In this document: one piece after another, positions 729 through 46,495 of the stretch | How positions within the stretch are numbered: position 1 is the stretch's first letter | How the letters are laid out: each line of letters starts with the position of its first letter | Assembly: GCA_963082975.1 (NCBI GenBank) | Contig: OY720345.1 | Location: forward strand, 76,663,034-76,727,033 | Source: Labia minor | Lineage: Eukaryota; Arthropoda; Insecta; Dermaptera; Spongiphoridae | Reading direction: 5' to 3' | DNA: 64,000 nt | Notes under the pieces: generated by a model | Database searches by the model: none | What the model was told of the DNA's origin: nothing | The model's input: the letters and a program-made list of their open reading frames with translations, nothing else | Translations under genes and position numbers: made by a program

Positions 729-1386
729 TAAGTTGACCTGTGGCCAGGTCCGAACCGACCGACGGTTTGAAATAAATTAATTTCCAGCTACAGAAACAAT
801 TTCAAATAATTTTCATATATCTATTAATGTAATAAAAAACAGATATGGATACATAAATAATAAAAATAAACATGTTTAATTTTATTTTATTTATAATATA
901 TATGCAAGACCAGGCTGTGACGTCATGAATGGCTGGATGACGTCATATAATTTTAAATCAAGAAAAAACTAATAAATATGATTTTTCTCGAGGATAAAAC
1001 CAATACAAAGTGCATGATTCGTGGTGATATATAAAAAAATCTCCTTTGGTGTGAAAATAACCCTTTCCTTCCTATCGTCGATCGCTAATACTACCACTTC
1101 CGGTTTCCGGAATTGCACCAAAAGTTGATCAATTCATCCCACTGATGCATTAAGTAAATATACCAAATTTCATCAAAATCGGTTGAGCCGTTCAGGCTGT
1201 ACACATCTATACGGACGGACAGACGGACGGACAGACGGACGGACGGACGGACGGACAGACGGACAGTCATCATGCTAAAAATACTTTTTTCTGTTTAGAA
1301 AATGCATGATTCGTGGAGATATGTAAAAATCTCCACATGTGAAATTTGGTGTGAAAACAATACCTCCCTTACTATCGTCGGTCGGT
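729..1386 (-). mobile_element. Helentron-type non-autonomous element, family A copy 1
   Basis: A 658-bp repeat. Read on the minus strand it begins ACCGACCGACGATAG and ends with CGTCGGTCGGT, a 25-30 bp tail containing the hairpin GACCT..AGGTC, then CTTA. The inverted repeat is thus at the very 5' end but subterminal at the 3' end, the asymmetric layout described for Helentrons and their short derivatives (HINEs, including DINE-1). A GGAC/AGAC microsatellite sits inside (1213-1264), and T runs flank both ends on the minus strand. It has no coding capacity. The similarity to four other copies in this window is seen directly; the Helentron assignment rests on structure. Confidence 0.75.
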
Positions 1387-1742
1387 AAAAATAGAATAGA
1401 AGGTGTAAATATGGTCTACCCTTTTTCTAACTCCAATATCAGATATTAAAAAATAACTTGAAGTAAAATTTATACCTGTTACATAGAGTAGGACAAGTTT
1501 ATTAGATATTTTGAAGTGTAGTTTAAGTTCTCAAATTATTTCATTTTGTATTAACGAAGGATTTTTAATTTTTTTAGAAAATCAATATTCGAGAAGTGGT
1601 GATGCAAATATGGACTATTTTAAAAATCCCTAATGAAATAACATTTATGTGTTTTAGTACATGTTTAATTAAAAAAAAAACAGAAATCTTACCACTTGAA
1701 ATTATTGGGTTGTTCCATAAATTCACCAGTAAACCATGCTTT

Positions 1743-1747
1743 TCTGT
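1743..1747 (+). other. target-site duplication of the BEL/Pao element, left copy
   Basis: TCTGT directly before the left LTR is repeated at 7248-7252 directly after the right LTR. A 4-6 bp duplication is normal for BEL/Pao elements. The perfect match shows that both ends come from the same insertion event. Confidence 0.85.
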
Positions 1748-2208
1748 TGTTTGGGACAAATCGTAACCCTTCAACCATTTCCCCTGACCCCTCCTTTTTA
1801 TGAGTGTACGGAAGCGCGCTCTGGCGAAGACACTATATACACTTAATATACATTCTTTACATATAGACTTTACGCTGGGATGTTCTGTGTAGAAAAACCG
1901 CATATAATATCCGCTTTCTTACCAGTTATATATAACACCCGCTTTTTCACCCGCTACATATACATCTACACACAATCATCTCACACCCGCCTATAAGCAG
2001 GAAGAAACACGCGTTTTTCCTGCCCTTTCACCGCGCAAATGTACATCGCAACCCGCAAGACGGAAGGGACAGTTTAACAGCAAAGTGTTGGTCACCATCA
2101 TCCTAGCGTGGTAAGTACACTCACTGTTCCTTTCATCGAACCAGCCCAACCCGCAGGAAACGGAGATTAAAACCGTCTAACTGCGAACGGTTTGCTTCGT
2201 CTCATTCA
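1748..2208 (+). repeat. 5' LTR of BEL/Pao element
   Basis: 461 bp, starting TGTTTGGGACAAATCG and ending CTCATTCA, with TG..CA ends. Read side by side with the right LTR at 6787-7247 I found no difference, and both have the same length, so the insertion is young. Confidence 0.9.
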
Positions 2209-2295
2209 TTGGTCCTTCAAGCACGGATATCCATTCATTGGTCCTTCAAGCACGGATATCCATTCATTGGTCATTCGAACAAGTATCTCCATCCG
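2209..2295 (+). promoter_or_regulatory. candidate primer-binding site, in three tandem 29-bp units
   Basis: Directly after the 5' LTR the sequence TTGGTCCTTCAAGC opens a 29-bp unit that occurs twice exactly and a third time diverged (2209-2237, 2238-2266, 2267-2295). A primer-binding site complementary to a tRNA 3' end is expected at this place and would begin with TGG. Each unit ends in CATTCA, like the LTR itself, so the repeat regenerates an LTR-end/PBS-like junction. The tRNA was not identified. Confidence 0.5.
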
Positions 2296-2830
2296 TTACA
2301 TTGTTCCTTTAAGAATCAGAAATCCTTTGGTGTTTTTATACCTAGGATATCATTTCTGCATTCTTTCCAGACCGCGAACCCCCGCGGACCATCCGGTCTA
2401 AACGCTTTCATAATTTTTCCTTATCTTTTATACTATTGATTGTTCTCAAACACGCCCGCAATAATAATTAATTTGATTAAGAAATTAAATAATTAATAAT
2501 TTATTATTTTTATTAATTGGGTATAATATTAATATTAATATTTTGTTTAATTGCGATGAAAGCAAAGAAAATTTCATATATATTTTTTCATTCAGGATAA
2601 AGTTCAAAGTTATTTTATAAAAATATTATAAATGTATTGTTTAAATCCTATTTAAATTTATAAATAATACATATTGAGTTATAAATAATAATTCTATGTA
2701 AATTGATTTTTATTAAAACATTTTAGAATAAAAATATAAATAGTATATATATATAAATATATATTAGAATTTAAAATATAAATAAAATTAAATAATTTTG
2801 ACTGGAATTTAATTCAACTATATATTTATA

Positions 2831-5800
2831 ATGAATTCTGAAATTAGGCTTTCGATTGCGGAAGCGAAAAAGGAAGCTTATTATGAGAAAATTACGGAAT
2901 TATATAATAAATCAAAATATATTTCTTCTCGCGATTCTAAAGAAAATACCTCATTTTTAGCCGCAACTGAATCCATAGATAATTTAAGGGAAGAATATAT
3001 TAAATTGATTGGTGAAATTAATGAATTAAATATATCTTTGGATGAAAAGTATAAACCTTCCTTTAAGGCTTGGTTAAACTTCGAGGATATTTATAATATG
3101 GTCAAAGCCGAGAGACTGTCCATCCTCGAACACCGCAAATCATCCACTACAGCTCCTGTAGGTCAATCTGATCGCAAAATAAATCTACCTCCAATTGCAA
3201 TTAAGCAATTTGATGGACTACCGCAAAATTGGAATCTATTTTATGAAAGTTTTAAAATTAATATTCACGAAAACCGCAACCTGTCTAATTCTGAACGTAT
3301 ACAGTACCTCGTTGGCAGTTTAACTGGTAAGGCACGTTCAATTCTTATAGGCATTCGACCTGACGCAGATAATTACCTCCACATTTGGAAGGAATTAGAA
3401 AAAAAATATCAAGATAAACGGGCCCTCGGGGAAGCGTATTTAAACCAAATTCATGCATTGAAATATCCATCAATTAATAACTCTTCAAGTTTAGAAACTT
3501 TCATCGAACGTTTTGATGCTTCGATAGCCGCTTTTAAATCTTTAAAAATTGAAGATGCGTTAGATTTTATTTTTCTTTATTGGGGTTTAAGAAAGGTAGA
3601 TACACAAACCGCGCAAAATTTTGAAATATCTGTTCGAGATAAAGAAATCCCTTCGCTTAATGATTTTATTACATTTGTTAAACAACGAGTGAAAATTTTA
3701 GACCGTATTCCGAACATAAAAAAAGATTCCGAATTTTCCGCGAAATTACAAGTTACAAAAAATAATTTTCATTCGCATTTAACAGCTAACTCTGAAAAAT
3801 CTATAGATAAATGTATCATTTGCAATTTAGAAAATCATAACTTAATTTTTAAATGTTTTAAATTCCAAAACTTTCCCGTGAAAAAAAGGATCGAAATTGT
3901 TCATAAAAAATCATTATGTTCCAATTGTTTGAGTAGTAAGCATATTGATAAAAATTGCAAATCAAAAAATACATGTTTTATCTGTAAGAAACGCCATCAT
4001 ACCCTTCTACACGACCCTGAGAGGAGAAGAGAGGAGGTCTCCAATTCGAGAAGAGGTGGGGATACTTCTCCTTATCCCTCCGCTCACACGCCCCCCTCCA
4101 CCTTTGAACCTGTAGTAGCTATGAGTCAATCGACTAATCAAATATTTTTGGCAACAGCGCAAATCAACACGCTGGACTCGAGAGGTCGTATCCAGACCAT
4201 TCGGGCGTTAATTGACAGCGGCTCACAAGGTCATATTATCACTAATTCCTGTATTAAAAAACTAAAATTAAATTATTCTAAATTAAAACATCACTCGCTC
4301 AGCGGCATCGGTGGACATAAAACTTTCGTATTAGGTCGTTGTTCTTTTAAATTCTTTTCCCGAATGCCATCCGCAATTGAATATTCAATAGACGCGTTAG
4401 TGGTTAATACGATAACCAATAAATTACCATCTCAATCCATTAGTCCGGGAGAGTTTAAATATCTCGGAGGCATCGCTTTGGCCGATGACAGCTTTTACAA
4501 ACCGGGTGAGATTGATTTGGTAATTGGAGCATCGCTGTTTTCAAAATTATTATTATCGGGACGAATTAAGGCGCCTAATAACTTCCCAGACGCTATAGAA
4601 ACCACGCTAGGGTATATTCTTTTGGGGGAATTTAACTCATCCCAATCGAATAATGAATGGCTTTCTCTTCACATTTGGAATGAAATGTCAATTGAAAAAA
4701 CTTTAGAAAAATTCTGGGAAATTGAGGAGGTCCCTAATGAGAAATTGTTGAGTGAGGACGATAATAAATGTGAAAAACTATACGAGGATACTATTAAAAG
4801 GGAAAATGATGGAAGATATCTTGTTTGTCTCCCTTTTAAGGAAGATCCTCAATTGCTAGGCAATTCTTTTGAAATAGCAAAAAATAGATTCTTCTCACTT
4901 GAAAGAAAATTAAATAATTCACTTCAAATGCGCTTAGAATATAATAAAGTTATACAGAATTATATTGATAATAATTATTTATCGCTAGTAGAAAACCCTG
5001 ATATAGATAAAGGGTATATTATTCCGCACCACGGGGTTTGGAAAGAGGACAAAATATCCTCTAAATTAAGAATTGTATTAGACGCGAGCGCTAAGAGTGA
5101 TAGTCATCGCGCCCTTAATGACATTTTATATACAGGGCCTAATTTACAAAATAACTTATTTATCATATTATTAAATTTTCGATTATTTCGCTGGGCTCTA
5201 ACAACGGACATTAAACAAATGTACCTTCAGATAGGGGTTAAATCGGAACATAGAAAATTTCAAAGATTAATATATAGATTTAACTCCAAGGACGCTATAT
5301 CAATTTACGAATTTAATCGCCTTGCTTTCGGGTTAAATTGTAGTCCATTTCTCGCAATGAGAACTCTTCGCCAATTAGTATTTGAAAAAGGTAAAAATTT
5401 TCCATTAGCCGCAACAATCATTCAAAGAGATAGCTATATGGATGACATATGCACCTCTTTAATGACTGAAAATGAAACATATAAATCCCGTTATAAAATA
5501 GAAAATATATTGGCTTTCTCAGATTCGACAGTAGCCCTAAATTGGATACATTCCTCTCCACATAAATGGAAGTGTTTTGTGTCCAATAGGGTAGCAAAAA
5601 TTCATTCGTACTTAGAAGCTAAACATTTTTATTATATTGATGGAAAAACGAACCCGGCTGACTGCCTATCCCGCGGTCTCACTCCCGCTAAATTGTTAAA
5701 TCATCCCTTATGGTTTCATGGACCGTCTTGGGCTTATTCTAAAAGCCCAAATGAATGGCCGGTTAAGTCATTTAAATCTGATATTCATGAAACATTTCCG

Positions 5801-6613
5801 GAAATAAAACTTATAGCGTTAACTAACATACAAATTAATAAAAAATCTAATGTTATATATGATTTAACTTTACGAATTTCCTCTTGGAAAAAATTACTAA
5901 AAATTATAATGTATATTTTTAAATTTATAAATATAGTCTGTCCAAAAAATAAAATATCTAATAATTCTAATATAGATATTGCAGAAATTAAATTGTTAAG
6001 GACTATACAAAAGTTACATTTTTCCAAGGAATATGAAACTATTAAATTGAATAAAATTTTACCCCGCCATCTCCAAAAACTCAATCCAATAATTGAGGGA
6101 GGTTTGATCCGCGTAGGAGGTCGCTTGAGAAATGCTGATGTCTCCTATGATAATAAACACCCAATTTTATTACCTAGTGATGAAATTGTGGTGGAAAATT
6201 TAATTATTTGTTACCATAGAAAATATTGCCATTCTGGGGCTAATTTATTATTATCGCTTATTAGGCAAAGATTTTGGATTATTTCTGGGAGAAATTTAAT
6301 CAAACGCCTAGTTAGACAATGCAATACATGTTTTCGCCTTCGTCCACGCCCTTTATACCCTCTAATGGCAGATTTACCCGCATGCCGCGTACGTCCCAGC
6401 AATGCCTTTCATCACACTGCTACAAATCCGATAAAGGTCGGAACTATTGTAGTGATGCAGATGGACAATGTCCATCCTTTAAAGTGGCCTATGGGAGTGG
6501 TGGAAAAAGTGATTTTTGGCTCGGACGGAATTCCGAGGGTCGCATGGATAAAAACCAAATCCGGTTCATATAAACGACCGGTGGTCCGTCTGTGTCGGCT
6601 ACCTACTCAATAA
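2831..6613 (+). CDS. BEL/Pao retrotransposon Gag-Pol polyprotein, open but internally deleted
   Basis: 1260 residues without a stop. In order: a BEL-type Gag (DUF1759-like, about 100-290); three cysteine/histidine knuckles (about 328-342, 363-376, 382-394, the middle one C-x2-C-x4-H-x4-C); an aspartic protease with DSGSQ near 462; a reverse transcriptase with IVLDASAKS, DIKQMYLQI and YMDD at 869-872; an RNase H stretch (FSDSTVALNWI) only about 25 residues after YMDD; an integrase zinc-binding segment near 1127-1170 (H..H..CNTC); and a C-terminal DUF5641-like tail. Two expected parts are missing in frame: the RT thumb to early RNase H, and the whole DDE integrase core between MADLP and the tail. 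BEL polyproteins usually exceed 1600 residues. The element cannot integrate alone, yet its LTRs look identical. Confidence 0.9.
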   Translation: MNSEIRLSIAEAKKEAYYEKITELYNKSKYISSRDSKENTSFLAATESIDNLREEYIKLIGEINELNISLDEKYKPSFKAWLNFEDIYNMVKAERLSILEHRKSSTTAPVGQSDRKINLPPIAIKQFDGLPQNWNLFYESFKINIHENRNLSNSERIQYLVGSLTGKARSILIGIRPDADNYLHIWKELEKKYQDKRALGEAYLNQIHALKYPSINNSSSLETFIERFDASIAAFKSLKIEDALDFIFLYWGLRKVDTQTAQNFEISVRDKEIPSLNDFITFVKQRVKILDRIPNIKKDSEFSAKLQVTKNNFHSHLTANSEKSIDKCIICNLENHNLIFKCFKFQNFPVKKRIEIVHKKSLCSNCLSSKHIDKNCKSKNTCFICKKRHHTLLHDPERRREEVSNSRRGGDTSPYPSAHTPPSTFEPVVAMSQSTNQIFLATAQINTLDSRGRIQTIRALIDSGSQGHIITNSCIKKLKLNYSKLKHHSLSGIGGHKTFVLGRCSFKFFSRMPSAIEYSIDALVVNTITNKLPSQSISPGEFKYLGGIALADDSFYKPGEIDLVIGASLFSKLLLSGRIKAPNNFPDAIETTLGYILLGEFNSSQSNNEWLSLHIWNEMSIEKTLEKFWEIEEVPNEKLLSEDDNKCEKLYEDTIKRENDGRYLVCLPFKEDPQLLGNSFEIAKNRFFSLERKLNNSLQMRLEYNKVIQNYIDNNYLSLVENPDIDKGYIIPHHGVWKEDKISSKLRIVLDASAKSDSHRALNDILYTGPNLQNNLFIILLNFRLFRWALTTDIKQMYLQIGVKSEHRKFQRLIYRFNSKDAISIYEFNRLAFGLNCSPFLAMRTLRQLVFEKGKNFPLAATIIQRDSYMDDICTSLMTENETYKSRYKIENILAFSDSTVALNWIHSSPHKWKCFVSNRVAKIHSYLEAKHFYYIDGKTNPADCLSRGLTPAKLLNHPLWFHGPSWAYSKSPNEWPVKSFKSDIHETFPEIKLIALTNIQINKKSNVIYDLTLRISSWKKLLKIIMYIFKFINIVCPKNKISNNSNIDIAEIKLLRTIQKLHFSKEYETIKLNKILPRHLQKLNPIIEGGLIRVGGRLRNADVSYDNKHPILLPSDEIVVENLIICYHRKYCHSGANLLLSLIRQRFWIISGRNLIKRLVRQCNTCFRLRPRPLYPLMADLPACRVRPSNAFHHTATNPIKVGTIVVMQMDNVHPLKWPMGVVEKVIFGSDGIPRVAWIKTKSGSYKRPVVRLCRLPTQ

Positions 6614-6769
6614 TGGAAAACTCTCCATTATTTCTCCGGGCCCAAATAGGTTACGGAGAAATTTATTTTATTTATTTTATTTATTTACTTAATATTTTTT
6701 GATCTTTTCTTTTCTTTGTTTCGCATTAAAAGGGGTATCGCTAGTTTTAAGATTTTGTTTTGAAGAATC

Positions 6770-6786
6770 CTTCAAGAGTGGGGGCA
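6770..6786 (+). promoter_or_regulatory. candidate polypurine tract of the BEL element
   Basis: AAGAGTGGGGG followed by CA directly precedes the 3' LTR, the place where plus-strand DNA synthesis is primed in LTR elements. The call is based on position and purine content only. Confidence 0.5.
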
Positions 6787-7247
6787 TGTTTGGGACAAAT
6801 CGTAACCCTTCAACCATTTCCCCTGACCCCTCCTTTTTATGAGTGTACGGAAGCGCGCTCTGGCGAAGACACTATATACACTTAATATACATTCTTTACA
6901 TATAGACTTTACGCTGGGATGTTCTGTGTAGAAAAACCGCATATAATATCCGCTTTCTTACCAGTTATATATAACACCCGCTTTTTCACCCGCTACATAT
7001 ACATCTACACACAATCATCTCACACCCGCCTATAAGCAGGAAGAAACACGCGTTTTTCCTGCCCTTTCACCGCGCAAATGTACATCGCAACCCGCAAGAC
7101 GGAAGGGACAGTTTAACAGCAAAGTGTTGGTCACCATCATCCTAGCGTGGTAAGTACACTCACTGTTCCTTTCATCGAACCAGCCCAACCCGCAGGAAAC
7201 GGAGATTAAAACCGTCTAACTGCGAACGGTTTGCTTCGTCTCATTCA
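6787..7247 (+). repeat. 3' LTR of BEL/Pao element
   Basis: 461 bp, apparently identical to the left LTR. It ends CTCATTCA and is followed by the target duplication TCTGT at 7248-7252. Confidence 0.9.
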
Positions 7248-14960: not shown

Positions 14961-15218
14961 CAACTGCTTTTAGCTTGAATGGTCCTTTTGCGAATGAGCT
15001 GCATTTGTCAAAAGTTGTTAAAAATCTACGAATTTTGAATAATGCCCGTATACAAAATTTCATTATTCTAGCTCAAACCGTTTTTGCGTAATCTTTTCTA
15101 CACACACAGAGAGAAACATTTTTCTCAGCCTTATTGTAAATGACTCAGAGGCCTTCAAAACGTATAACATCATCATCAAAATCTCGCCATCGAAAATTTT
15201 CGTGATCACAATCTCTCA
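14961..15218 (+). mobile_element. family B Helentron-type relic, right half
   Basis: A diverged copy of the right part of family B (CATTTGTCAAAAGTTG, TTTCATTATTCTAGCTCAAA, ACACACACAGAGAG, CAAAACGTATAA, CGAAAATTTTCGTGATC). It stops where a Helitron has inserted at 15219, within sequence that should lead to the family B right terminus. Confidence 0.6.
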
Positions 15219-18786: not shown

Positions 18787-20018
18787 TTGCATACCTTTGA
18801 GTTTTTCAAGCAAAAAATAGTAATATGGATAGAAAGAGTTAAGAGATATGAAGTTGATTGTTTTAATTCGTTTGATTCTTACTTGTTGGAAAACAATACT
18901 TCAATAAATTTTAATTTTAAAAAGAAAATTTTAGAACATCTTTCAAATCTGTCAAGCCCTTTCATAGAGTATTTTCCAAAAAACAAAAACATTGAAAATG
19001 ATATGTGGATAGCAGATCCGTTTTCAAAAAATAATAAGTTGACCTGTGGCCAGGTCCGAACCGACCGACGGTTTGAAATAAATTAATTTCCAGCTACAGA
19101 AACAATTTCAAATAATTTTAATATATCTATTAATGTAATAAAAAACAGATATGGATACATAAATAATAAATATAAACATTTTTAATTGTATTTTATTTAT
19201 AATATATATGCAAGACCAGGCTGTGACGTCATGAATGGCTGGATGACGTCATATAATTTTAAATCAAGAAAAAACTAATAAATATGATTTTTCTCGAGGA
19301 TAAAACCAATACAAAGTGCATGATTCGTGGTGATATATTATAAAAAAATCTCCTTTGGTGTGAAAATAACCCTTTCCTTCCTATCGTCGATCGCTAATAC
19401 TACCACTTCCGGTTTCCGGAATTGCACCAAAAGTTGATCAATTCATCCCACTGATGCATTAAGTAAATATACCAAATTTCATCAAAATCGGTTGAGCCGT
19501 TCAGGCTGTACACATCTATACGGACGGACAGACGGACAGACGGACAGACGGACGGACAGACATCATGCTAAAAATACTTTTTTCTGTTAAGAAAATGCAT
19601 GATTCGTGGAGATATGTAAAAATCTCCACATGTGAAATTTGGTGTGAAAACAATACCTCCCTTACTATCGTCGGTCGGTAAAAACTATTCGGGTTTATCT
19701 TCAAAAGAAGAAGAAGAACTTATTGTGAAATTTGCTACGACTCCACATATAAAGAAAAATTTCCTTGTGTGCCTGTTTCGACATTTTGGATTACACTTCA
19801 AGAACTTTTTCCAAATGTTGCTAAAAAGGCCATTAAACGACTTTTGCCGTTTGTCACTACTTATTTATGTGAAAGCGGCTTTGCAAAATATTGTGATACA
19901 AAAACAAAAAAAAAAAAAATAAGTTAAACGCATCAGCGGACATTCGATGTCAATTGACGTCTTGGGAACCAAATTATGAAAAATTTGCTGAAAATTTAAC
20001 ACAGCAAGTTTCTCATTA
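18787..20018 (+). pseudogene. hAT transposase relic (ZBED5/FAM200-like), in two pieces
   Basis: Piece one (18787-19033) contains ILEHLSNLSSPFIEYFP and MWIADPFS, typical of the region before the dimerisation domain in hAT transposases of the ZBED5/FAM200 type. Piece two (about 19685-20018) starts SSKEEEELIVKFATT and, after a frameshift, gives LFPNVAKKAIKRLLPF and YLCESGF, the hallmark C-terminal dimerisation block, then a poly-A tract and the end of the protein. A family A element sits between them. Truncated at the 5' end, frameshifted, inactive. Confidence 0.75.
19034..19679 (-). mobile_element. Helentron-type element, family A copy 2
   Basis: 646 bp, nearly the same as copy 1, inserted in the hAT relic. 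On the minus strand TTTTT precedes ACCGACC and TTATTTTTTG follows CTTA, so again the junctions are T-tracts. The GGAC/AGAC microsatellite (19521-19561) is shorter than in copy 1. Confidence 0.75.
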
Positions 20019-22203: not shown

Positions 22204-22840
22204 TTAGCTGGAGTGTCTCCACTCGACTATCTCGCAATTTGAATTGGATTAAATAACATAATATATTATATTTAAATTAAATTTAATTAATTATAAATTA
22301 TAAATAATAAATATTAAACCAGCGCATGTTTGGCTTTTTATTGATGGCACCATGGCACGTGTTGGCGCGTGAGATTTGCAGTGTTAAAAAATTAATTCTG
22401 GTACTTTCAGCAATTCAATCAAGCTGAAATTCTATATATATAAGTTTTTTACAATCTTCAATCAAGTTAAAAACTATCAAACATATATTTTTATTTTTAC
22501 GGTTACTTTAGAGGAAAAAAAATCAAAACGTTGTAGGTAATGACCCTCTTCCGGTTAAGCTACATTTCTCAAAAGTTGATAGAAAACTATGAATTTTGAA
22601 TAATGTCCATGTACCAAATTTCATCATTCTAGCTCAAACCGTTTTTGCGTAATCTTGTCTACATACATACACACACACACATACACACACACATACACAC
22701 ACACATACACACACACACACACAGAGACATTTTTCTCAACCTTAGTGAAAATGATTCAGGAACCTTCAAAACGTATAAAAACATCAAAATCTCGACATCG
22801 AAAATTTTCGTGATCGCAATACTATCTCTGGCGAGATAGT
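22204..22840 (-). mobile_element. Helentron-type element, family B, complete copy
   Basis: 637 bp. On the minus strand it starts ACTATCTCGCCAGAGATAGT (itself a hairpin) and near its end has GCGAGATAGT, then a hairpin TGGAGACACTCCA and a short tail. The inverted repeat is terminal on one side and subterminal on the other, as in family A. An AC microsatellite (22670-22722) lies inside. No coding capacity; long apparent reading frames across the AC run are artefacts. Confidence 0.75.
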
Positions 22841-27597: not shown

Positions 27598-27704
27598 TTA
27601 TTATATTTATTAATTTTAATTTATAATTTAATTAATTTAAATATAATATATGTTAATTAATCCAATTCAAATTGCGAGATAGTCTTATGGAGACACTCCA
27701 GCTT
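27598..27704 (-). mobile_element. family B terminal fragment
   Basis: Only the hairpin end is kept: GCGAGATAGT, then TGGAGACACTCCAGCTTA. The remainder of the element is missing, so this is a truncated copy. Confidence 0.65.
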
Positions 27705-28360: not shown

Positions 28361-28850
28361 TTAGCTGGAGTGTCTCCACTCGATTATCTCGCAAATTGAA
28401 TTGGATTAAATGACATAATATATTATATTTAAATTAAATTAAATTAATTATAAATTATAAATTAAAATTAATAGATAATTTTTATTAAACCAGCGCATGC
28501 TTGGCTCTTTGTTGATGGCACCACGTCACGTGTTGGCGCGTGAGATTTGCAGTGTTAAAAAATTAATTCTGGTACTTTCAGCGATTCAATCAAGCTGAAA
28601 TTCTATATATAGTAGTTTTATACACTTTTTAATCATGTGAAAAATTATCAAACATATATCTTTATTTTTACGGTCAGATTAGATTAGAAGAAAAAAAATT
28701 AAAACGTTGTGGGTAATGACCTTCTTCTGGTTGAATTACATTTCTCAAAAGTTGATAAAAAACTACGAATTTTGAATAATCCCCATGTACCAAATTTCAT
28801 GATTCTAGCTCAAACCGTTTTTGCGTAATCTTGTCTACACACACACATAC
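28361..28850 (-). mobile_element. family B element, broken at the microsatellite
   Basis: The hairpin end and body match the complete copy at 22204-22840, but the sequence stops in the ACACACATAC run and is joined directly to a family A fragment. The ACTATCTCGCC terminus is lost. Confidence 0.7.
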
Positions 28851-29271
28851 ATTTTTATTTTTTATTTTAATTTATTTATAATATATAAGAGTAGGAGCTG
28901 GCTGTGACGTCATATAATTTTAAATTAAGAAAAAGATGATTTTTCTCGAGAATAAAATCAAAACATTCGTGGAGATATTTAAAAATTCTTCTCATGTGAA
29001 ATTTGGTGTGAAAATAACCCTTCCCTTCCTATCGTCGATCGCTAATACTACCACTTTCGGTTTCCGGATTTGCACCAACAGTTGATCAATCCATCATACT
29101 GATGCATTAAGTAAATATACCAAATTTCATCAAAATCAAGCTGTACACATCTATACAGACGGACGGACGGACAGACATCATGCTAAAAATACTTTTTTCT
29201 GTTAAGAAAATGCATGATTCGTGGAGATATGTAAAAATCTCCACATGTGAAATTTGGTGTGAAAACTTACC
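28851..29271 (-). mobile_element. family A fragment fused to family B
   Basis: Matches family A from the TTTATTTATAATATATA stretch through GACGTCA, the GGAC microsatellite (29158-29172) and up to ACTTACCTCCCTT, but lacks both termini. No spacer separates it from the family B piece. Confidence 0.7.
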
Positions 29272-30333
29272 TCCCTTTCATCAATTTTTTTTTTGTTTAA
29301 ATTTGTACATAATAAAAATGTTTAATTTTGCCATTGGATTATAAATTCAAAATATTATCAATTTATCTAGTCATTTGGGGTGGGATAAACTACATGCATG
29401 CAGTGATGTGAATCAGAACGGATGGGATCATTATTGTATCGTGTGTCTTTCAGTCCTTGATGTACCATTCCTCCCTATATGGTAAATTGGCTCAAATTTG
29501 AATTCACTTGGATAAACTAGGTGTGTTGTATATACATCCAACAACCCCCTCCCCCTCACCCACAACTCTCCCCCCCTTCTTCCACCCTTCCACCTCTGCA
29601 CATAGTATACGCCTCAACAGAAACTTAGGCAACCGTAAGCATTAGTCTAAATATGTATAACAAACATTTATTTATAAATATATTTCTAATAAACATTTAT
29701 ATATTTCTCATAAAACAAGTTGAAATGTTATGTCAATTAATGAAAATATTTTAAGATATTTATAGAAAAGGTTAAAAAATTTAAAATTTTTTTTTAATTG
29801 ATATAAATTTGAATAAAAATATTATTAAATATAATATTATAATTATTATTATGATATGATTATTATTATAATAGATTTTAGTCGGAGTGTAGTTAGTTAA
29901 TGATAATCTTGACATGTTACAATTGGGTCTTAAAAGATCTCTCATTCCATTTATGTCATTTCTATGTCCAATGATTTTGCTTGCTTGGATGCTAGACTAG
30001 ACCCAGATTATAGAATCCAAATCAAGTTTGTTTTATCTTATGATACAGTATTAAGATTTATATGATTGGATACATTTCTAGAGTAATATATTAGAGTTTA
30101 ATAAAAATAAAAAAATAAAAAAAATTCACTTTTTCTTTTACGTATAATATGTAAAACAATTTTGGAATATAAAGAAGGGTGATATATTTGATCCAGCCGA
30201 ATAACTTATTTTATGTTCGATGTTTCACTTTGCTTCTAAATGATAAATTTTTTTGCTTTCTCATCTTTCTTATTCCATCTAATAGTCACGATTCAATAAC
30301 TTATAAAATAATCTTAAATTTTATCATTTTTAT
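29272..30333. other. AT-rich spacer with a C-rich patch
   Basis: A C-rich patch lies at 29540-29600. No gene or element recognised. Confidence 0.4.
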
Positions 30334-31430
30334 ACTATCTCGCCAGAGATAGTATTGCGATCACGAAAATTTTCGATGTCGAGATTTTGATGTTTTTATA
30401 CGTTTTGAAGGTCCCTGAGTCATTTTCACTAAGATTGAGAAAAATGTCTGTATGTGTCTGTGTGTATGTGTATGTGTGGGTGGGTGGGTGTATGTGTGTA
30501 TGTATGTAGACAAGATTACGCAAAAACGGTTTGAGCTAGAATCATGAAATTTGGTATATGGGAATGATTCAAAATTCGTAGTTTTCTATCAACTTTTGAG
30601 AAATGTAGCTCAACCGGAAGAGGATCATTACCTACAACGTTTTGATTTTTTTCCTCTAAAGTGACCGTAAAAATAAAGATATATGTTTGATAGTTTTTAA
30701 CTTGATTGAAGATTGTAAAAAACTTATATATGTTACGGTAAAAGTAGATATTGTGGCAAATGTACACATTTTCCGGTAAATGTGCACATTAGCCTCCTCA
30801 TTTGGGTAATGTGCATTCAACTAACATTTACAATTTCAAATAAGGGAAATGTACATTGAATTCACAATGACCATGTCGTTTTGGTAAATGTGAGCATAGA
30901 TTACTAATTAATGCCATAGTATACTGATATAATTTAAGATATTTAGAGAAATAAGACTCAGGTAAGTTAAAATTTTAATTTTTCTACAAAAAATTATTTT
31001 TTAGTTAGAATTTTTGAAAAACAATGGAACAAAAAGAAAAATTTAAAAACCAACTAGAACAGATTGTATCACAAAAAACAAAAATATTGTATATGTACAT
31101 ATACATTATATTCAGTTCACATATATCTAACTTTTTGGGAAATGTACACATTTTCCGGTAAATGTGTACATTTCCCAAGAGTGTACATTTACCGTAACAT
31201 ATATATAGAATTTCAGCTTGATTGAATCGCTGAAAGTTCCGGAATTTTTTAACACTGCAAATCACGCGCCAACACGTGACGTGGTGCCATCAACAAACAT
31301 GCGCTGATTTAATAAATATTATTTATTAATTTTCATTTATAATTAATTAAATTTTTTAATTTAAATATAATATATGTTAATTAATTCAATTCAAATTTGC
31401 GAGATAGTCGAGTGGAGACACTCCAGCTTA
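30334..31430 (-). mobile_element. family B element, complete, split by a TIR element
   Basis: Oriented opposite to the copy at 22204 in the window. It begins ACTATCTCGCCAGAGATAGT at 30334 and ends TGGAGACACTCCAGCTTA at 31430; T or A/T runs flank it. The extra length over 637 bp is a 467-bp insertion at 30732-31198. The TATATA stretch at that site is duplicated. Confidence 0.75.
30732..31198. mobile_element. TIR element with repeated subterminal motifs
   Basis: Ends are GTTACGGTAAA and TTTACCGTAAC, perfect inverted repeats. Both sub-ends carry repeats of the phrase GGTAAATGTGCACATT or AAATGTACACATTTTCCGG, in both orientations. It lies inside a family B element at an AT repeat, so the exact target duplication (up to about 6 bp of AT) cannot be fixed. 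No transposase coding. Confidence 0.7.
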
Positions 31431-31855: not shown

Positions 31856-32325
31856 ATAACCAGCGCGTGTTTGACTCTGTTGATGGCACCACGTCACATG
31901 CTGGCGCGTGATTAGCAGTAAACGTAATAAAAAATTAATTCCGGTGCTTTCAGCGATTTAATCAAGCTGAAATTCTATATATAGCAGTTTTATACATTTT
32001 TTATTCATGTGGAAAAACTATCAAACATATTACGGTCACTTTAGAGGAAAAAAAATCAAAATGTGGTAGGTAATGACCCTCTTCCGGATAAGCTACATTT
32101 CTCAAAAGTTGATAGAAAACTACGAATTTTGAATAATGCCCGTGTACCAAATTTCATTATTCTAACCTCAAACCGTTTTTTGCGTAATCTTGTCTACATA
32201 CTCACACACACACACACACAGACACATACAGACATTTTTCTCAATCTTAGTGAAAATGACTGTGACCTTCAAAACGTATAAAAACATTAAAATCTCGACA
32301 TTTTTCGTGATCGCAATACTATATA
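31856..32325 (-). mobile_element. family B relic without the hairpin end
   Basis: Starts inside the body (CCAGCGCGTGTTTGACTC) and runs through the AC microsatellite (32203-32220) to TTTTTCGTGATCGCAATACTAT, where the terminal repeat is degraded. Confidence 0.6.
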
Positions 32326-33793: not shown

Positions 33794-34358
33794 TTAGCTG
33801 GAGTGTCTCCACTCGGCTATCTCGCAATTTGAATTGGATTAAATAACATATATTATATTTAAATTAAATTTAATTAATTATAAATTATAATTAATAAATA
33901 ATATTTATTAAACCAGCGCGTATCGGACTCTTTGTTGATGGCACCACGTCACGTGTTGGCGCGTGAGATTTGCTGTCGTGTTAAAAAATTAATTCCGGTA
34001 CTTTCAGCGATTCAATCAAGCTGAAATTCTATATATAGCAGTTTTATACAATTATTAATTATGTGAAAAAGTATCAAACATATATCTTTATTTTTACGCT
34101 CACTTTAGAGTAGAGGAAAAAAATTAAAACGTTGTAGGTAATGAACCTATTCCTGATGAGCTACATTTCTCAAAAGTTGATAGAAAACTACGAATTTTGA
34201 ATAATGCCCGTATACCAAATTTCATGATTCTAGCTTAAACCGTTTTTGCGTAATATTGTCTACATAAACACACACACAGACATTTTTCTTAACCTTAGTG
34301 AAAATTACTTAGGGGACCTTCAAAACGTATAAAAACATCTAAATCCCAACATCGAAAT
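33794..34358 (-). mobile_element. family B element, one end missing
   Basis: The hairpin end (TTAGCTGGAGTGTCTCCACTCG at 33794 onward) and body match the complete copy. It ends at CATCGAAATTTATATA, so the ACTATCTCGCC terminus is lost. Confidence 0.65.
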
Positions 34359-34896
34359 TTATATATATTCTCACTCTATTGTAATTTATAGATTACACAA
34401 AGTAAGAAAAGTTTCATATGATATTAAAAAAAAATAATGAGAAATAAACTCTTAGAGTAATTTTTTTTTATCAAAAGACACAGTTAATATTAAATTTTTT
34501 TTATGCAATATTTAATATTAAACCAAGAAAATTAGATTCTATCTCTCTCAGAGGACATTTATCTTTTTCTATCGTAATGACCTCACTATATTTCGAAATA
34601 AATATATATTATTAAGATTCAAATTTTAAAAAAAAAAAAATTTTAGATTCAAAATATGTTAGTGTTATTAATTCACATGCCATATTTTTTTAAAAATTTT
34701 AGTTTAAGTTGAAAATATTTAGATATTATTTTTTTGGAAATTCTCTTTTTATACTCAAGAGACATCAAAATACTTATAATTTTCTATTGAAATCTCATAT
34801 ATCAAAACAATTCAAAAGAAAATTATTCAATATATCCTCCTAATTAATAACTTTTTTTAATCATCAATCCCTAAAAATTGTATAATTCTCTCATCG
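34359..34896. other. AT-rich spacer, nothing recognised
   Basis: No supported feature. Confidence 0.4.
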
Positions 34897-34930: not shown

Positions 34931-35519
34931 TAAGTTGACCTGTGGCCAGGTCCGAACCGACCGACGGTTTGAAATAAATTAATTTCCAGCTACAGAAACA
35001 ATTTCAAATAATTTTTATATATCTATTAATGTAATAAAAAACAGATATGGATAGAACATAAATATTTTTAATTTTATTTTATTTATAATATATATGTAAG
35101 ACGTCATGAATGGCTGGATGACGTCATATAATTTTAATTAAGAAAAAACTAATAAAGATGATTTTTCTCGAGTATAAAACCAATGCAAAGTGAATGATTC
35201 GTGATGATATGTAAAAAATCTCCTCATGTGAAATTTGGTATGAAAATAACCCTTCCCTTCCTATCGCTAATACTACCACTTCCGGTTTCCGGATTTGCAC
35301 CAAAAGTTAATCAATTCATCATACTGATGCATTAAGTAAATATACCAAATTTCATCAAAATCAAGCTGTACACATCTATACGGACGGACGGACGGACAGA
35401 CATCATGCTAAAAATACTTTTTTCTGTTAAGAAAATGCATGATTCGTGGAGATATGTAAAAATCTCCACATGTGAAATTTGGTGTGAAAACAATACCTCC
35501 CTTACTATCGTCGGTCGGT
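34931..35519 (-). mobile_element. Helentron-type element, family A copy 3
   Basis: 589 bp with both termini. It has internal deletions around the GACGTCA block and the ATCAAAATC region, and only four GGAC-type units. The flanks on the minus strand are TTTTT and TTTTC. Confidence 0.75.
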
Positions 35520-39914: not shown

Positions 39915-41064
39915 GACTGCTGCTCAGAGCGCCTTCGGCGCTCTTCACACCTAGACGGGGGCTCCGCCCCCTGTACCCCCGAGTGGTACATAGTATTTGG
40001 TTGAAAGTAGTAAAAGGTTTTCATCCATTTTGTTTCAATCCGTATATTTATAAAACATTCATTTCTTTTTGTTTTCTTATTCAAAATCTATTTTAATTTA
40101 ATCAGTAAATTAATTATATATATTATTATTATTGTATATGTTATATCTATCTATCTATGTGGCTCAAAGATACTCGAAAGTTCTTGGCCGCAACAACCAC
40201 ATTTCTCCAAGTGTCCTATCCTAAGCCCTTGTCCCATCTCTCTTACGTCCCTTCCTACGCGTCAATAAATTTAAAAAATATATCCAATTTAAAAATGTCA
40301 AAAATTTAAAACAACTTTATATCATCATATTTTAATTTTATATATAATATATATATATATTTAGTAATTAATAATAGAGTAATTAAATTAAAATAAAAAA
40401 CAAAGATAATATAATTCAGTCATTTTAATTCAGGTTAAATAATATTTTTTTTTATTATTCAATGATAAAATTTATATATTATTATATATATATTATAGAA
40501 AAGAAGAAATATTCAATTAAATAAAAAATAATTTAAGATAAAAATATGATCTAATAAATATTTTAATTAAATTGAGAACTTTTAGAATAAATTATTTAAT
40601 TGAATTGATATTTGTATATTAGAATTTAAAATAAAAAGTGAAATATTATAATAATTCTTCGATTGGGAATCGCTATGATAATTCATTGTTTGAAATGATT
40701 CCGCTAGGCCGACAGTGAGCCGCGAGCTGCTCTTGAATGAACAACACGGAGAATTATATAAACTTTAAAAAAATAATTTCTGCGGTTATTGATAAGATAT
40801 TAATAAAATTTATAGCCTATGTTACTCTAGAGGTATATAAGAATATTGTGATGTAATTTCAAAGAAATCGGTTCAGCGAATTCTGAGTCTATAAAATAGT
40901 AATTTTCCGGACAGACAGACCGACAGACAGACAGACAGACAGACAGACGTGAAAAATTCTAAAGTCACTTTTGGATTCTAGAGGTCATGAAACGCGAAGA
41001 TATGCAAAAATTTTTAAATTCTGAGCAATGTGCAGACAAAAACCTTTTTTTATATATATATAGA
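39915..41064 (-). mobile_element. Helitron family C copy with captured LINE fragment
   Basis: On the minus strand it starts TC at 41064-41063 after A, and ends in the perfect hairpin AGAGCGCC-GAA-GGCGCTCT (about 39925); the terminal CTAG is altered. GACAGACAG microsatellite at 40911-40947. LINE sequence (GTTCTTGGCCGCAACAACC..) lies at 40155-40262, at the same internal point as in the 16620 copy. Its TC end abuts the satellite array exactly. Confidence 0.7.
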
Positions 41065-41065
41065 T

Positions 41066-44000
41066 TTTTAAAAATTTCTTTTTTTAATTTTACCGTCAAA
41101 GTTATGAAAGGTTGGCCGACGATAACCCTCGGTTTTCGGCATAAAAAAATAATTATTCATCAGAAATATCAATAATAAATTTTTTTAATATTTTTATGAT
41201 GTAAAATGAACGAATTTATTATTTATTTAAAAAAATTTCATTTTTTAATTTTACAGTAAAAATTATGAAAGATCATCGTAGGATGACCCTCCGTTTTCGG
41301 CATAAAAAAATAATTATTCATCAGAAATATCAATAATATTTTTTTTTAATATTTTTATGATGTTAAATGAACGAATTTATTAATTATTTAAAAAAAATTT
41401 CATTTTTTAATTTTACAGTAAAAATTATGAAAGGTCATCGTAGGATGACCCTCCGTTTTCGGCATAAAAAAATAATTATTCATCAGAAATATCAATAATA
41501 AATTATTTTAATATTTTTATGATGTAAAATGAACGAATTTATTATTTATTTAAAAAAAATTTCATTTTTTAATTTTACAGTAAAAATTATGAAAGGTCAT
41601 CGTAGGATGACCCTCCGTTTTCGGCATAAAAAAATAATTATTCATCAGAAATATCAATAATATTCTTGTTTAATATTTGTATGATGTTAAATTGAACGAA
41701 TTTATTATTTTTATATTAAAAATTTCATTTTTTAATTTTATCTTAAAAATTATGAAAGGTCATCGTAGGATGATGACCCTCCGTTTTCGGCATAAAAAAA
41801 TAATTATTCATCAGAAATATCAATAATATTCTTTTTTAATATTTTTATGATGTTAAATTGAACAAATTTATTATTTTTTTATTAAAAATTTCATTTTTTA
41901 ATTTTACAGTAAAAATTATGAAAGGTCATCGTAGGTGACCCTCCGTTTTCGGGATAAAAAAATAATTATTCATCAGAAATATCAATAATATTCTTTTTTA
42001 ATATTTTTATGATGTTAAATTGAACGAATTTATTATTTTTTTATTAAAAATTTCATTTTTACCGACCGACGATAGTAAGGGAGGTATTGTTTTCACACCA
42101 AATTTCACATGTGGAGATTTTTACATATCTCCACGAATCATGCATTTTCTAAACAGAAAAAAGTATTTTTAGCATGATGTCTGTCCGTCTGTCCGTCCGT
42201 CTGTCCGTCTGTCCGTCCGTATAGATGTGTACAGCCTGAACGGCTCAACCGATTTTGATGAAATTTGGCATATTTACTTAATGCATCAGTGGGATGAATT
42301 GATCAACTTTTGGTGCAATTCCGGAAACCGGAAATGGTAGTATTAGCGATCGACGATAGGAAGGAAAGGGTTATTTTCACACCAAAGGAGATTTTTTTAT
42401 ATATCACCACGAATCATGCACTTTGTATTGGTTTTATCCTCGAGAAAAATCATATTTATTAGTTTTTTCTTGATTTAAAATTATATGACGTCATCCAACC
42501 ATTCATGACGTCACAGCCTGGTCTTGCATATATATTATAAATAAAATAAAATTAAAAATGTTTATATTTATTATTTAAGTATCCATTGTTTTTTATTACA
42601 TTAATAGATATATGAAAATTATTTGAAATTGTTTCTGTAGCTTGAAATTAATTTATTTCAAACCGTCGGTCGGTTCGGACCTGGTCACAGGTCAACTTAT
42701 TTAATTTTATCTTAAAAATTATGAAAGGTCATCGTAGGATGACCCTCCGTTTTCGGCATAAAAAAATAATTATTCATCAGAAATATCAATAATATATTTT
42801 TTTAATATTTTTATTATGTAAAATAAACGAATTTATTATTTTTTTATTAAAAATTTCATTTTTTAATTTTATCTTAAAAATTATGAAAGGTCATCGTAGG
42901 ATGATGACCATCCGTTTTCGGCATAAAAAAATAATTATTTTATGATGTAAAATGAACGAATTTATTATTTATTTTTAAAAATTTCTTTTTTTAATTTTAC
43001 CGTCAAAGTTATGAAAGGTTGGCCGACGATAACCCTCGGTTTTCGGCATAAAAAAATAATTATTCATCAGAAATATCAATAATAAATTTTTTTAATATTT
43101 TTATGATGTAAAATGAACGAATTTATTATTTATTTAAAAAAATTTCATTTTTTAATTTTACAGTAAAAATTATGAAAGGTCATCGTAGGATGACCTTCCG
43201 TTTTCGACATAAAAAAATATTTATTCATCAGAAATATCAATAATATTTTTTTTTAATATTTTTATGATGTTAAATGAACGAATTTATTAATTATTTAAAA
43301 AAAATTTCATTTTTTAATTTTACAGTAAAAATTATGAAATGTCATCGTAGGATGACCCTCCGTTTTCGGCATAAAAAAATAATTATTCATCAGAAATATC
43401 AATAATAAATTTTTTTAATATTTTTATGATGTAAAATGAACGAATTTATTATTTATTTAAAAAAATTTCATTTTTTAATTTTACAGTAAAAATTATGAAA
43501 GGTCATCGTAGGATGACCCTCCGTTTTCGGCATAAAAAAATAATTATTCATCAGAAATATCAATAATAAATTATTTTAATATTTTTATGATGTAAAATGA
43601 ACGAATTTATTATTTATTTAAAAAAAATTTCATTTTTTAATTTTACAGTAAAAATTATGAAAGGTCATCGTAGGATGACCCTCCGTTTTCGGCATAAAAA
43701 AATAATTATTCTTCAGAAATATCAATAATATTTTTTTTTAATATTTTTATGATGTTAAATGAACGAATTTATTATTTATTTAAAAAAAATTTCATTTTTT
43801 AATTTTACAGTAAAAATTATGAAATGTCATCGTAGGATGACCCTCCGTTTTCGGCATAAAAAAATAATTATTCATCAGAAATATCAATAATAAATTTTTT
43901 TAATATTTTTATGATGTAAAATGAACGAATTTATTATTTATTTAAAAAAATTTCATTTTTTAATTTTACAGTAAAAATTATGAAAGGTCATCGTAGGATG

Positions 44001-44940
44001 ACCCTCCGTTTTCGGCATAAAAAAATAATTATTCATCAGAAATATCAATAATAAATGTTTTTAATATTTTTATGATGTTAAATGAACGAATTTATTAATT
44101 ATTTAAAAAAAATTTCATTTTTTAATTTTACAGTAAAAATTATGAAAGGTCATCGTAGGATGACCCTCCGTTTTCGGCATAAAAAAATAATTATTCATCA
44201 GAAATATCAATAATATTTTTTTTTAATATTTTTATGATGTTAAATGAACGAATTTATTAATTATTTAAAAAAAATTTCATTTTTTAATTTTACAGTAAAA
44301 ATTATGAAAGGTCATCGTAGGATGACCCTCCGTTTTCGGCATAAAAAAATAATTATTCATCAGAAATATCAATAATAAATTTTTTTAATATTTTTATGAT
44401 GTAAAATGAACGAATTTATTATTTATTTAAAAAAAATTTCATTTTTTAATTTTACAGTAAAAATTATGAAAGGTCATCGTAGGATGACCCTCCGTTTTCG
44501 GCATAAAAAAATAATTATTCTTCAGAAATATCAATAATATTTTTTTTTAATATTTTTATGATGTTAAATGAACGAATTTATTATTTATTTAAAAAAAATT
44601 TCATTTTTTAATTTTACAGTAAAAATTATGAAAGGTCATCGTAGGATGACCCTCCGTTTTCGGCATAAAAAAATAATTATTCATCAGAAATATCAATAAT
44701 ATTCTTTTTTAATATTTTTATAATGTTAAATTGAACGAATTTATTATTTTTTTATTAAAAATTTCATTTTTTAATTTTATCTTAAAAATTATGAAAGGTC
44801 ATCGTAGGATGATGACCCTCCGTTTTCGGCATAAAAAAATAATTATTTTATGATGTAAAATGAATGAATTTATTATTTATTTTTAAAAATTTCTTTTTTT
44901 AATTTTACCGTCAAAATTATGAAAGTTTGGCCAACATAAA
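41066..44940 (+). repeat. satellite array, ~162-bp monomer, about 20 units
   Basis: A monomer of about 161-163 bp repeats head to tail, with a core GGTCATCGTAGGATGACC, then CTCCGTTTTCGGCATAAAAA and ATTATTCATCAGAAATATC. The core is a perfect hairpin (GGTCATC/GATGACC). Cores lie near 41273, 41434, 41598, 41761, 41928, 42727, 42890 and then from 43178 to 44796. Two monomers (41106, 43013) have the variant GGTTGGCCGACGATAACC instead, and each block ends in a short monomer that lacks the ATTCATCAGAAATATC part. A family A element interrupts the array at 42061-42699. The right edge runs into a LINE fragment. Confidence 0.9.
42061..42699 (+). mobile_element. Helentron-type element, family A copy 4, inside the satellite
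   Basis: 639 bp from ACCGACCGACGATAG to AGGTCAACTTA, so the element's own 5' end is on the left here. The monomer reads CATTTTT before it and TTTAATTTTATC after it. Against an unbroken monomer (CATTTTTTAATTTTA) this fits insertion into the T run with at most 2 T duplicated or counted as element ends. Confidence 0.8.
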
Positions 44941-45087
44941 AAATACTTATGAACTATAGACGGATGAAGTATTATGAGATATAATTGCGGCTTAAGGCTA
45001 AATCGTTCAATATTAATTAATATATTTTCATTATGACAACCACAAATTCAAAATTTCTGTTCACTAATTATTTGTAGACTTTAGTAA
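44935..45087 (+). pseudogene. LINE reverse-transcriptase fragment at the satellite edge
   Basis: ACTATAGACGGATGAAGTATTATG..GCGGCTTAAGG..AATCGTTC and TTCACTAATTATTTGTAGAC match the LINE inside the Helitron at 17648-17775, where the better-kept copy translates as a CGFRPNRST-type motif and an RT motif A region. Dead fragment. Confidence 0.6.
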
Positions 45088-45431
45088 AATATATATATAT
45101 AAATTGTTTTGTTTCATATGAAATATTTTTATATCATTCCAAAGCTTTAATAAATGCTTTCTATTTTATAGAATATTTTAAAAAAATTAACAAAATATAA
45201 ATTAAGCAAAACTCAAATGCCAGTCTTCCATTTAACCCCTAAAAAATGTAATTTTTTTTTATTTTATTTATAATCAAGATTTTGGATGGATTATTTCTTT
45301 GAAATTTAATCATGATGAAAAAAAATAAAAATTAAGATGGTTTCAGACCAAATGATAAATTATCCAAAAAGGGAAATAACTATTACCAATTATTAATTAG
45401 TATTTTGCAATTTTAATATTAATATTGAAAT
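45088..45431. other. AT-rich spacer, nothing recognised
   Basis: No supported feature. Confidence 0.4.
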
Positions 45432-46495
45432 TGTAACGTTTAAAATTACGCGCTCGAGCTTCCCTCTGGTGACGAGTGACTGTCGATTGTTGCCAAGCTA
45501 ACTTTTTACCGACCGACGATAGTAAGGGAGGTATTGTTTTCACACCAAATTTCACATGTTGTGATTTTTACATATCTCCACGAATCATGCATTTTCTAAA
45601 CAGAAAAAAGTATTTTTAGCATGATGTCTGTCCGTCCGTCTGTCCGTCCGTATAGATGTGTACAGCCTGAACGGCTCAACCGATTTTGATGAAATTTGGT
45701 ATATTTTCTTAATGCATCAGTGGGATGAATTGATCAACTTTTGGTGCAAATCCGTGAACCGGAAGTGGTAGTATTAGCGATCGACGATAGGAAGGGAAGG
45801 GTTATTTTCACACCAAATTTCACATGAGGAGATTTTTTTATATATTACCACGAATCATGCACTTTGTATTGGTTTTATCCTCGGGAAAATCATATTTATT
45901 AGTTTTTTCTTGATTTAAAATTATATGACGTCATCCAGCCATTCATGACGTCACAGCCTGGTCTTACATATAAATATATACATATATTATAAATAAATTA
46001 AAATTAAAAATATTTATGTTATATGCCTATATGTTTTTTATTACATTAATAGATATATTAAAATTATTTGAAATTGTTTCTGTAGCTGGAAATTAATTTA
46101 CTTCAAACCGTCGGTCGGTTCGGACCTGGCCACAGGTCAACTTATTTTTTTCTGCGTTGCCGATGTCTCTGTTAAGCTTATCGTTTTCTCTCTTTTGAAT
46201 TTAGAAATTTAAAATATCTTATCATCTCTAAAGTATATATATGAATCACTGCTCAAATTCAAAAATTATCTTTTGTCACGGTGAGTAAAAGAAATAAAAA
46301 AATAACTACTTGTAAACATATATATATTATTCATAATTTACTACTAATTTACTACTAATTTGTTCATTCTTTATTTTAGTTTTTTATAATAAGTATAAGT
46401 CTTTGTATTATGTTGCCATCCCAGCCGAATCCTGGTCAATAAATAAATTATTTAATTCATCAATTTTTTTTTATTTTTATTTTTCCTTGTTATTT
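45432..46495 (+). repeat. candidate 5' LTR, split by a family A element
   Basis: Begins TGTAACG and ends TTTACA directly before a primer-binding site. Without the family A insertion (45508-46144) it is about 430 bp. An AATAAATAAA stretch lies near its end (46437). No second LTR was found downstream, so the call rests on the TG..CA ends and the PBS. Confidence 0.5.
45508..46144 (+). mobile_element. Helentron-type element, family A copy 5
   Basis: 637 bp, both termini present; preceded by CTTTTT and followed by TTTTTTTC, again a T-tract target. The GGAC/AGAC microsatellite is short here (about 45625-45650). Confidence 0.8.

Follow-up and report, generated by a model that had tools for sequence, protein, structure and literature searches.

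Two Abundant Repeat Families with the Layout of Helentron-Associated Elements in the Earwig Labia minor, and a Candidate Autonomous Partner for One of Them

Introduction

Helentrons, as characterized in the portions of Thomas, Vadnagara and Pritham (2014, PMC4067079) drawn on here, combine Rep and helicase domains with a fused Exo_endo_phos_2 endonuclease and have ends in common with Helentron-associated elements (HINEs), which have subterminal inverted arms and a 3' palindrome. In this study we describe two repeat families, A and B, in a 64,000-nucleotide stretch of the genome of Labia minor, hereafter the window (G000:C2:76663034-76727033, in a chromosome-scale genome of 604 Mb and 71 contigs). 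An earlier reading of the letters of this stretch, referred to below as the original prediction, proposed that both families have the layout of Helentron-associated elements such as DINE-1. Our alignments, a structural scan and the empty sites of family A supported that reading, and we estimate a probability of about 0.92 that A and B are non-autonomous, DINE-1-like HINEs.

The resemblance extends to several described systems, each considered here from parts of the papers cited. Like the HINEs and Helentrons of PMC4067079, A and B have subterminal inverted arms and a 3' palindrome, occupy T-rich targets with variable numbers of Ts and no clear target modification, and contain a microsatellite, a feature of some copies of the published elements. 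The 3' arm, however, is 38–60 nt from the end in the mite families of that paper and 22–25 nt from it in A and B. Helitron2 (Bao and Jurka 2013, PMC3627910) has its 5' arm 0–2 bp and its 3' arm 20–30 bp from the ends, as in A and B, and one Helitron2 family inserts after a run of Ts without duplication, which is also like A and B; the Helitron2 5' hairpin that includes the arm is present in B but not in A. The DINE-1, mini-me and Helitron2_Cv elements of Diptera (PMC2374699, PMC3630058) resemble A and B in having a conserved core (90 bp in dipteran DINE-1), a variable middle, subterminal arms, a 3' hairpin and a TT target, and their block A is split by a GTCY microsatellite, as in family A. 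The arms listed for DINE-1 differ from those of A and B, and the microsatellite of B is GTGT/GTAT. In PMC2374699 the DINE-1 plan consists of a conserved block enclosing a GTCY-rich repeat, then a variable middle and finally the 3' end, and A and B follow this overall plan. The core and terminal sequences of A and B gave no match in a text search of the literature, and both are new families within a known class, that of non-autonomous Helentron-associated elements.

Results and Discussion

Termini of Families A and B

Copies were located by BLAST of the two copies named in the original prediction (A1 and B1) against the window, together with alignments (Table 1). The coordinates given for these two copies were exact, and the reported five A copies and several B copies in 64 kb were recovered as five full and one partial copy of A, and two two-ended copies and five fragments of B. 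Both families had sharp ends. Family A runs from ACCGACCGACG to CGTCGGTCGGT-TCG-GACCTG-GCCA-CAGGTC-AACTTA, and family B from ACTATCTCGC to GCGAGATAGT-CGAG-TGGAG-ACA-CTCCA-GCTWA. Inverted arms, terminal at the 5' end and subterminal at the 3' end, were present in five A and two B copies of the window, with ACCGACCGACG and CGTCGGTCGGT kept in all five full A copies. The distance from the 3' arm to the 3' terminus was 25 nt in A and 22 nt in B, and the order in both families was arm, hairpin, CTTA or CTAA, and Ts.

The 3' hairpin of A was strong (-10.1 kcal/mol, z -3.8). The original prediction had recognized this hairpin but gave it as AGGTC..GACCT, which we correct to GACCTG..CAGGTC. Family B had a perfect hairpin at its very 5' end, spanning the arm (-8.0 kcal/mol, z -3.0), that had gone unmentioned, while folding of the 5' terminus of A gave no hairpin (z +0.96). 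The microsatellite, GTCY in A and GTGT/GTAT in B, had been described as central; instead it starts approximately 120 bp downstream of the 5' terminus.

A structural scan of the window for an arm, a 3' arm, a hairpin and CTWATT, in which the letters of the arms were not supplied, recovered the five full copies of A, the two of B and nothing else; the same scan returned no match in 20 Markov-resampled windows. The scan was designed after A and B had been read and so tests the specificity of the pattern, not its discovery. These results bear out the claim that the two families share one Helentron-type architecture.

Insertion Sites and Genomic Abundance

The A3 copy is inserted in a satellite array, and its empty site could be read exactly as CA-T6-AA becoming CA-T5-[A]-T3-AA, based on CA-TTTTTT-AA in all 17 uninterrupted satellite monomers matched. 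An A copy nested within another A (locus L029) provided a second exact empty site, with T6 becoming T5+T3. The net gain at these two sites was two Ts, with no longer duplication. An A inserted in a B (locus L008) was flanked by T6 and T3, at a place where four B copies of the window have 7 or 8 Ts. More broadly, among matches to the A ends from the window and the fetched best-hit loci, which include some internal or stray sites, at least four Ts preceded 28 of 35 5' matches (exactly five in 18 of the 35) and at least TT followed 29 of 31 3' matches. For family B, 12 fetched loci, one of them B1 itself, contained 12 5' matches (in 11 of the loci), ten after at least five Ts and two after ATT, and all 12 of the 3' matches were followed by TT or more. 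The flanks of both families are T-rich, in agreement with the proposed insertion in T-tracts. The check for pre-insertion sites that had been suggested yielded, for family A only, the two exact empty sites without long duplication, and neither long target duplications nor the ends of a long or short interspersed nuclear element (LINE or SINE), which had been named as contrary outcomes, were seen in the material examined, where the empty sites are those of A only.

Genome-wide, the 36-bp 3' end of A had 22,311 matches and the 32-bp 3' end of B had 30,818 (each with at most three mismatches), and the reversed-pattern controls for both had none. The expected numbers per 64 kb are approximately 2.4 A and 3.3 B 3' ends, and the window has five of each, so the cluster in the window is not special. 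The original prediction had taken the five A and several B copies as a sign that both families were active here; the copies are confirmed, but at this ordinary density they say little about activity. Assuming approximately 0.6 kb per 3' end, A and B together would account for roughly 5% of the genome, which is an upper figure since many ends will mark truncated copies.

A Candidate Autonomous Partner for Family B

A profile search for Helitron_like_N identified 104 places in the genome. In 30 Rep-helicase (RepHel) loci taken with 1.5-kb flanks, an A or B end was found only in L079, and the loci read further were L062/L063, L057/L059, L083/L081, L079 and C1:47868109. The last of these held a candidate partner of B, at C1:47862609-47874777 (minus strand, 12,169 bp). 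Its 5' end, at C1:47874777 after TTTTT, matched B 1-525 at 93%, beginning precisely at the terminus, followed by a repeat of B 316-552 at 89%. At its 3' end, C1:47862609, the last 41 bp of B were identical, ending in CTAA and followed by TTTT. Over the last 60 bp the candidate matched B1 at 48/60 (80%), and the remaining fetched copies of B gave 45-48/60, values at or just under the 80% rule for subfamilies given in PMC4067079.

Between the B ends is a stop-free 2181-aa frame with Helitron_like_N, whose end is approximately 1.2 kb from the B 3' end. The last 835 aa of this frame matched PIF1 (1e-18), Exo_endo_phos_2 (3.9e-4) and Peptidase_C48 (0.01), the last two below the curated cut-off. By eye, the endonuclease region has the series GDFN...QIDIVL...YHKPV and the C48 region has HW...FDS...YDCGVY, both of which we take to be the motifs of their respective domains. 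The Ulp1/SENP-like region forms the C-terminus of the frame, past the endonuclease (L099:1695-2200; C1:47863894 onward), and a PDB sequence search with it returned SENP8 (E 0.017). These matches are suggestive of a frame that would end in a Ulp1/SENP-like cysteine protease. The candidate resembles the Helentrons of PMC4067079 in its Rep/helicase with a fused Exo_endo_phos_2 endonuclease and in having ends common to HINEs; it differs in that the proteases named there are OTU proteases, whereas its own Ulp1/SENP-like domain scores weakly. Within the coverage of one library, no text with both "Helentron" and "Ulp1" was found, and "Helitron" with "Ulp1" does occur.

When the last 500 aa were used as a protein query, a second copy was identified at C1:44694181-44695669 (93-97%) and a decayed copy at C10:37189978-37191414 (76-90%, plus one overlapping row at 37%). 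The query also gave distant relatives at 41% and 33% and numerous short matches to the endonuclease (35-41%), which probably come from LINEs. The 5' non-coding part of the candidate contains a nested, 3'-truncated A (1-553); the T5 to the left of this A also occurs in repeats of the flank that carry no insertion, which gives the left side and not a full empty site. The genome search that the original prediction called for, aimed at a Rep-helicase-endonuclease element with the same ends, gave for family B this one locus, with a sub-threshold endonuclease match. Judging from its ends and its frame, the element at C1:47862609-47874777 is likely to drive B. A very abundant short repeat, with approximately 30,000 ends, is thereby linked to a Helentron with an open frame that the same genome carries, which makes the trans-mobilization of HINEs testable.

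We propose that A and B keep only cis signals, namely the terminal 5' arm, the 5' block with its microsatellite and core, the subterminal 3' arm, the hairpin and CTWA. The Rep/PIF1-helicase/endonuclease would act in trans and would nick both donor and target where they are T-rich; rolling-circle replication would then copy one strand, the end of which would be marked by the arms and the 3' hairpin. The new copy would enter between Ts, without a long duplication.

Family A probably uses a related Helentron. Cross-mobilization of A by the driver of B is possible, but the two families differ in their arms, which speaks for separate drivers. Further loci with an endonuclease match, at C1:55.79 Mb, on C63 and at C2:16.28 Mb, would be candidates for the driver of A. 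At L079, the neighboring A 3' end is that of another A copy, full-length and lying outside the RepHel, and this locus was rejected as an A partner. From the group L061-L067 and L069 (frames of 1537-1655 aa) only L062 and L063 were compared; L063 had no A or B end in the shared element, and B fragments lie just outside that element. The L083/L081 elements are of a DUF6570-Rep-PIF1 type (from a Pfam scan covering part of the frame), with a C-terminus that ends after the helicase and a 5' end of TTTACCACG. L057 and L059 are canonical Helitron1 elements and not partners of A or B; that at L057 has a 2039-aa frame and the form TC...hairpin...CTAG, and is inserted between A and T.

Relatedness of the 5' Halves

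The original prediction regarded A and B as unrelated in sequence, a view that our comparisons of their 5' halves overturned. A1 24-293 and B1 19-296 aligned colinearly at approximately 60%, across the microsatellite. With the microsatellites removed these halves scored 32, relative to a mean of 11.0 (standard deviation 1.55, maximum 21) in 1000 dinucleotide shuffles, and a second cut of them scored 33 with a shuffle maximum of 17. Comparison of the A and B 5' parts with 1746 other 300-bp pieces of the window, on both strands, gave a maximum of 19. The 20 pairings of five A with four B 5' parts scored 13-33, with 12 pairs above 19, and all five A copies scored above 19 with B1. The case for relatedness rests on the 5' half because the comparison of full-length A with B separates poorly, with a score of 33 against shuffles of up to 26, 22 for the reverse complement of B, and up to 31 for unrelated AT-rich pieces of the window. 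The 3' halves had shorter AT-rich matches only.

The 5' halves also share a core, TGATGAAATTTGGTA, which at up to two mismatches occurred 14 times in the window versus 0.75 expected, with 12 of the 14 inside A or B copies. It was present once in each of the six A copies and in six of the seven B copies, the seventh B being a 3' fragment; the B1 counterpart is at 22612-22626. The core pattern had no matches in viral contigs, a set from which records near this genome may be left out. The families differ in their terminal arms, in their 3' halves and in the 5' hairpin found in B only. This indicates that a colinear 5' block can be common to HINE families whose terminal arms differ, so that such families may be kin through the block while their recognition ends turn over.

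Near the TC end of the Helitron1 at L057 are (GTCT)n and a similar core. The 5' block of this element scored 22 with A (maximum 20 in 1000 shuffles and 19 in the 1746 window pieces) and 11 with B (716 of 1000 shuffles were as good). The margin for A is small, and we treat a possible kinship between the A and L057 5' blocks as a lead only. A separate part of the window, at approximately 40561-41160 on the minus strand, scored up to 238 with the L057 5' block, and a Helitron1-type copy is thus also present in the window.

We offer one broader proposal tentatively, and consider it rather doubtful as a whole: that B is driven by a Helentron with a SENP/Ulp1-type cysteine protease at the end of its Rep-helicase-endonuclease polyprotein, and that the 5' block of microsatellite and core is an old cis module common to HINEs with different arms and in part to Helitron1. 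If this speculation is correct, the 5' block would be functional and exchangeable between rolling-circle lineages and not a by-product of descent.

Alternative Interpretations

Several points weigh against the assignment of A and B to the HINEs and against the partner and kinship proposed for them. The gain of two Ts fits both element ends without duplication and a 2-bp TT duplication, and the 3' hairpin of B, although a perfect stem, was weak (z -1.3 and -0.7). No autonomous partner for A was found among the 30 RepHel loci and their flanks. The B partner was seen at a single locus that was read except for 3.9 kb (47866401-47870299), and its Exo_endo_phos_2 match was below the Pfam cut-off (20.7 vs 27.4 bits). 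In the 5' comparisons, eight of the 20 A-B pairs were not above the best of the 1746 window pieces, with three of the four B copies truncated or interrupted, and the match was strongest for A1/B1. The two added Ts at the exact empty sites would suit cut-and-paste miniature inverted-repeat transposable elements (MITEs) that duplicate a TT target, the class in which DINE-1 was once placed, as would the short inverted arms. Yang and Barbash (PMC2374699) described TT duplication in DINE-1, and T-T insertion without duplication is the reading given in PMC4067079. We nevertheless consider such an origin very unlikely, as the arms are asymmetric (5' terminal and 3' subterminal) and are accompanied by a 3' hairpin, and as the sole element found with B ends has Rep, helicase and an endonuclease match and not a DDE transposase (no search aimed at such a transposase with these ends was made).

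The partner of B might instead be a chance juxtaposition, in which 5' and 3' fragments of B came to lie in the same orientation around an unrelated Helentron. B ends are frequent in this genome, 5'-only or 3'-only fragments of B are present in the window, and nesting occurs at this very locus, as its internal A copy shows. A same-strand B 3' end within approximately 1.3 kb downstream would, however, be expected only about 3% of the time. In addition, only the last 41 bp match, all of them identical, and the 5' match begins right at the B terminus and has the same orientation; we regard juxtaposition as unlikely. A derivation of A and B from canonical Helitron1 (5' TC, 3' CTRR) has in its favor the open-frame elements at L057/L059 and the alignment of the A 5' block with that of L057, but seems to us hardly credible. 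A and B have no 5' TC, have arms and lie between Ts, unlike the L057 element, and B does not align with the L057 5' block. In place of the 5' TC, 3' CTRR and A/T insertion of canonical Helitron1, they have a 5' A after a T run and a 3' CTWA followed by Ts. Assignment to the DINE-1-like HINEs, thus, remains our preferred interpretation of both families.

Features of the Window

Table 1. Copies of families A and B in the window, with landmarks of A1 and B1.
Feature	Description	Position	Strand	Evidence
A1	Full-length family A element	729..1386	-	BLAST, alignment, structural scan
A2	Full-length family A element	19035..19679	-	BLAST, alignment, structural scan
A3	Full-length A inside 162-bp satellite array	42061..42699	+	Alignment, empty site, structural scan
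A4	Full-length family A element	45508..46144	+	BLAST, alignment, structural scan
A5	Full-length family A element	34931..35519	-	BLAST, alignment, structural scan
A6	Partial A, both terminal arms gone, 3' side joined to B2	28857..29277	-	BLAST, alignment
B1	Full-length family B element	22204..22840	-	BLAST, alignment, structural scan
B2	5'-truncated B, 3' end intact, start within microsatellite	28361..28851	-	BLAST, alignment
B3	B with intact 3' end, without 5' arm	33794..34360	-	BLAST, alignment
B4	Two-ended B, split by MITE-like insert at 30732-31198	30334..31430	+	BLAST, alignment, structural scan
B5	B without either terminus	31858..32322	-	BLAST, alignment
B6	Fragment of B 5' region	14978..15212	-	BLAST
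B7	Fragment of B 3' end	27603..27703	+	BLAST, alignment
A1 5' arm	ACCGACCGACG	1376..1386	-	Sequence
A1 core	Conserved core TGATGAAATTTGGTA, downstream of (GTCY)n microsatellite	1161..1175	-	Pattern search
A1 3' arm	CGTCGGTCGGT, 25 nt from 3' terminus	754..764	-	Sequence
A1 3' hairpin	GACCTG-GCCA-CAGGTC	735..750	-	Folding, structural scan
B1 5' hairpin	5'-terminal, ACTATCTC-GCCA-GAGATAGT, includes 5' arm	22821..22840	-	Folding

Several copies had rearranged structures. A6 and B2 are joined at the microsatellite region (28857/28851, in the stretch 28361-29277), an arrangement suggestive of a fusion of the two families at that repeat, with the 3' end of a B placed on the body of an A; a junction of this type was found in none of eight further fetched loci. 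The 5' end of family A is repeated within the element, at approximately 299-383, and some A-related copies (loci L036 and L041) retain only approximately 1-295 and a part close to the 3' end, separated by a different middle. One locus, L034:576-930, was a 98% copy of A 305-658 only, beginning at the internal 5'-end-like repeat, and this one case hints that the internal site may be usable as an alternative start. The foreign insert in B4 is approximately 467 bp, MITE-like, with inverted ends GTTACGGTAAA/TTTACCGTAAC.

The window also contains a long terminal repeat (LTR) retrotransposon at 1748-7247, with a single 1266-aa frame at 2813-6613 from which we take it to be of the BEL/Pao type. Its LTRs were identical over 462/462 aligned bases and a 5-bp repeat, TCTGT, was present on both sides, and it is, therefore, a very recent insertion. 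The 162-bp satellite array interrupted by A3 extends over 41070-44847, and a diverged relative of it is at 63570-64000, the end of the window. Lastly, a Ty3/gypsy-type fragment was identified at 48695-49723, with matches to RT_RNaseH (3e-40) and Integrase_H2C2 (1.3e-23).

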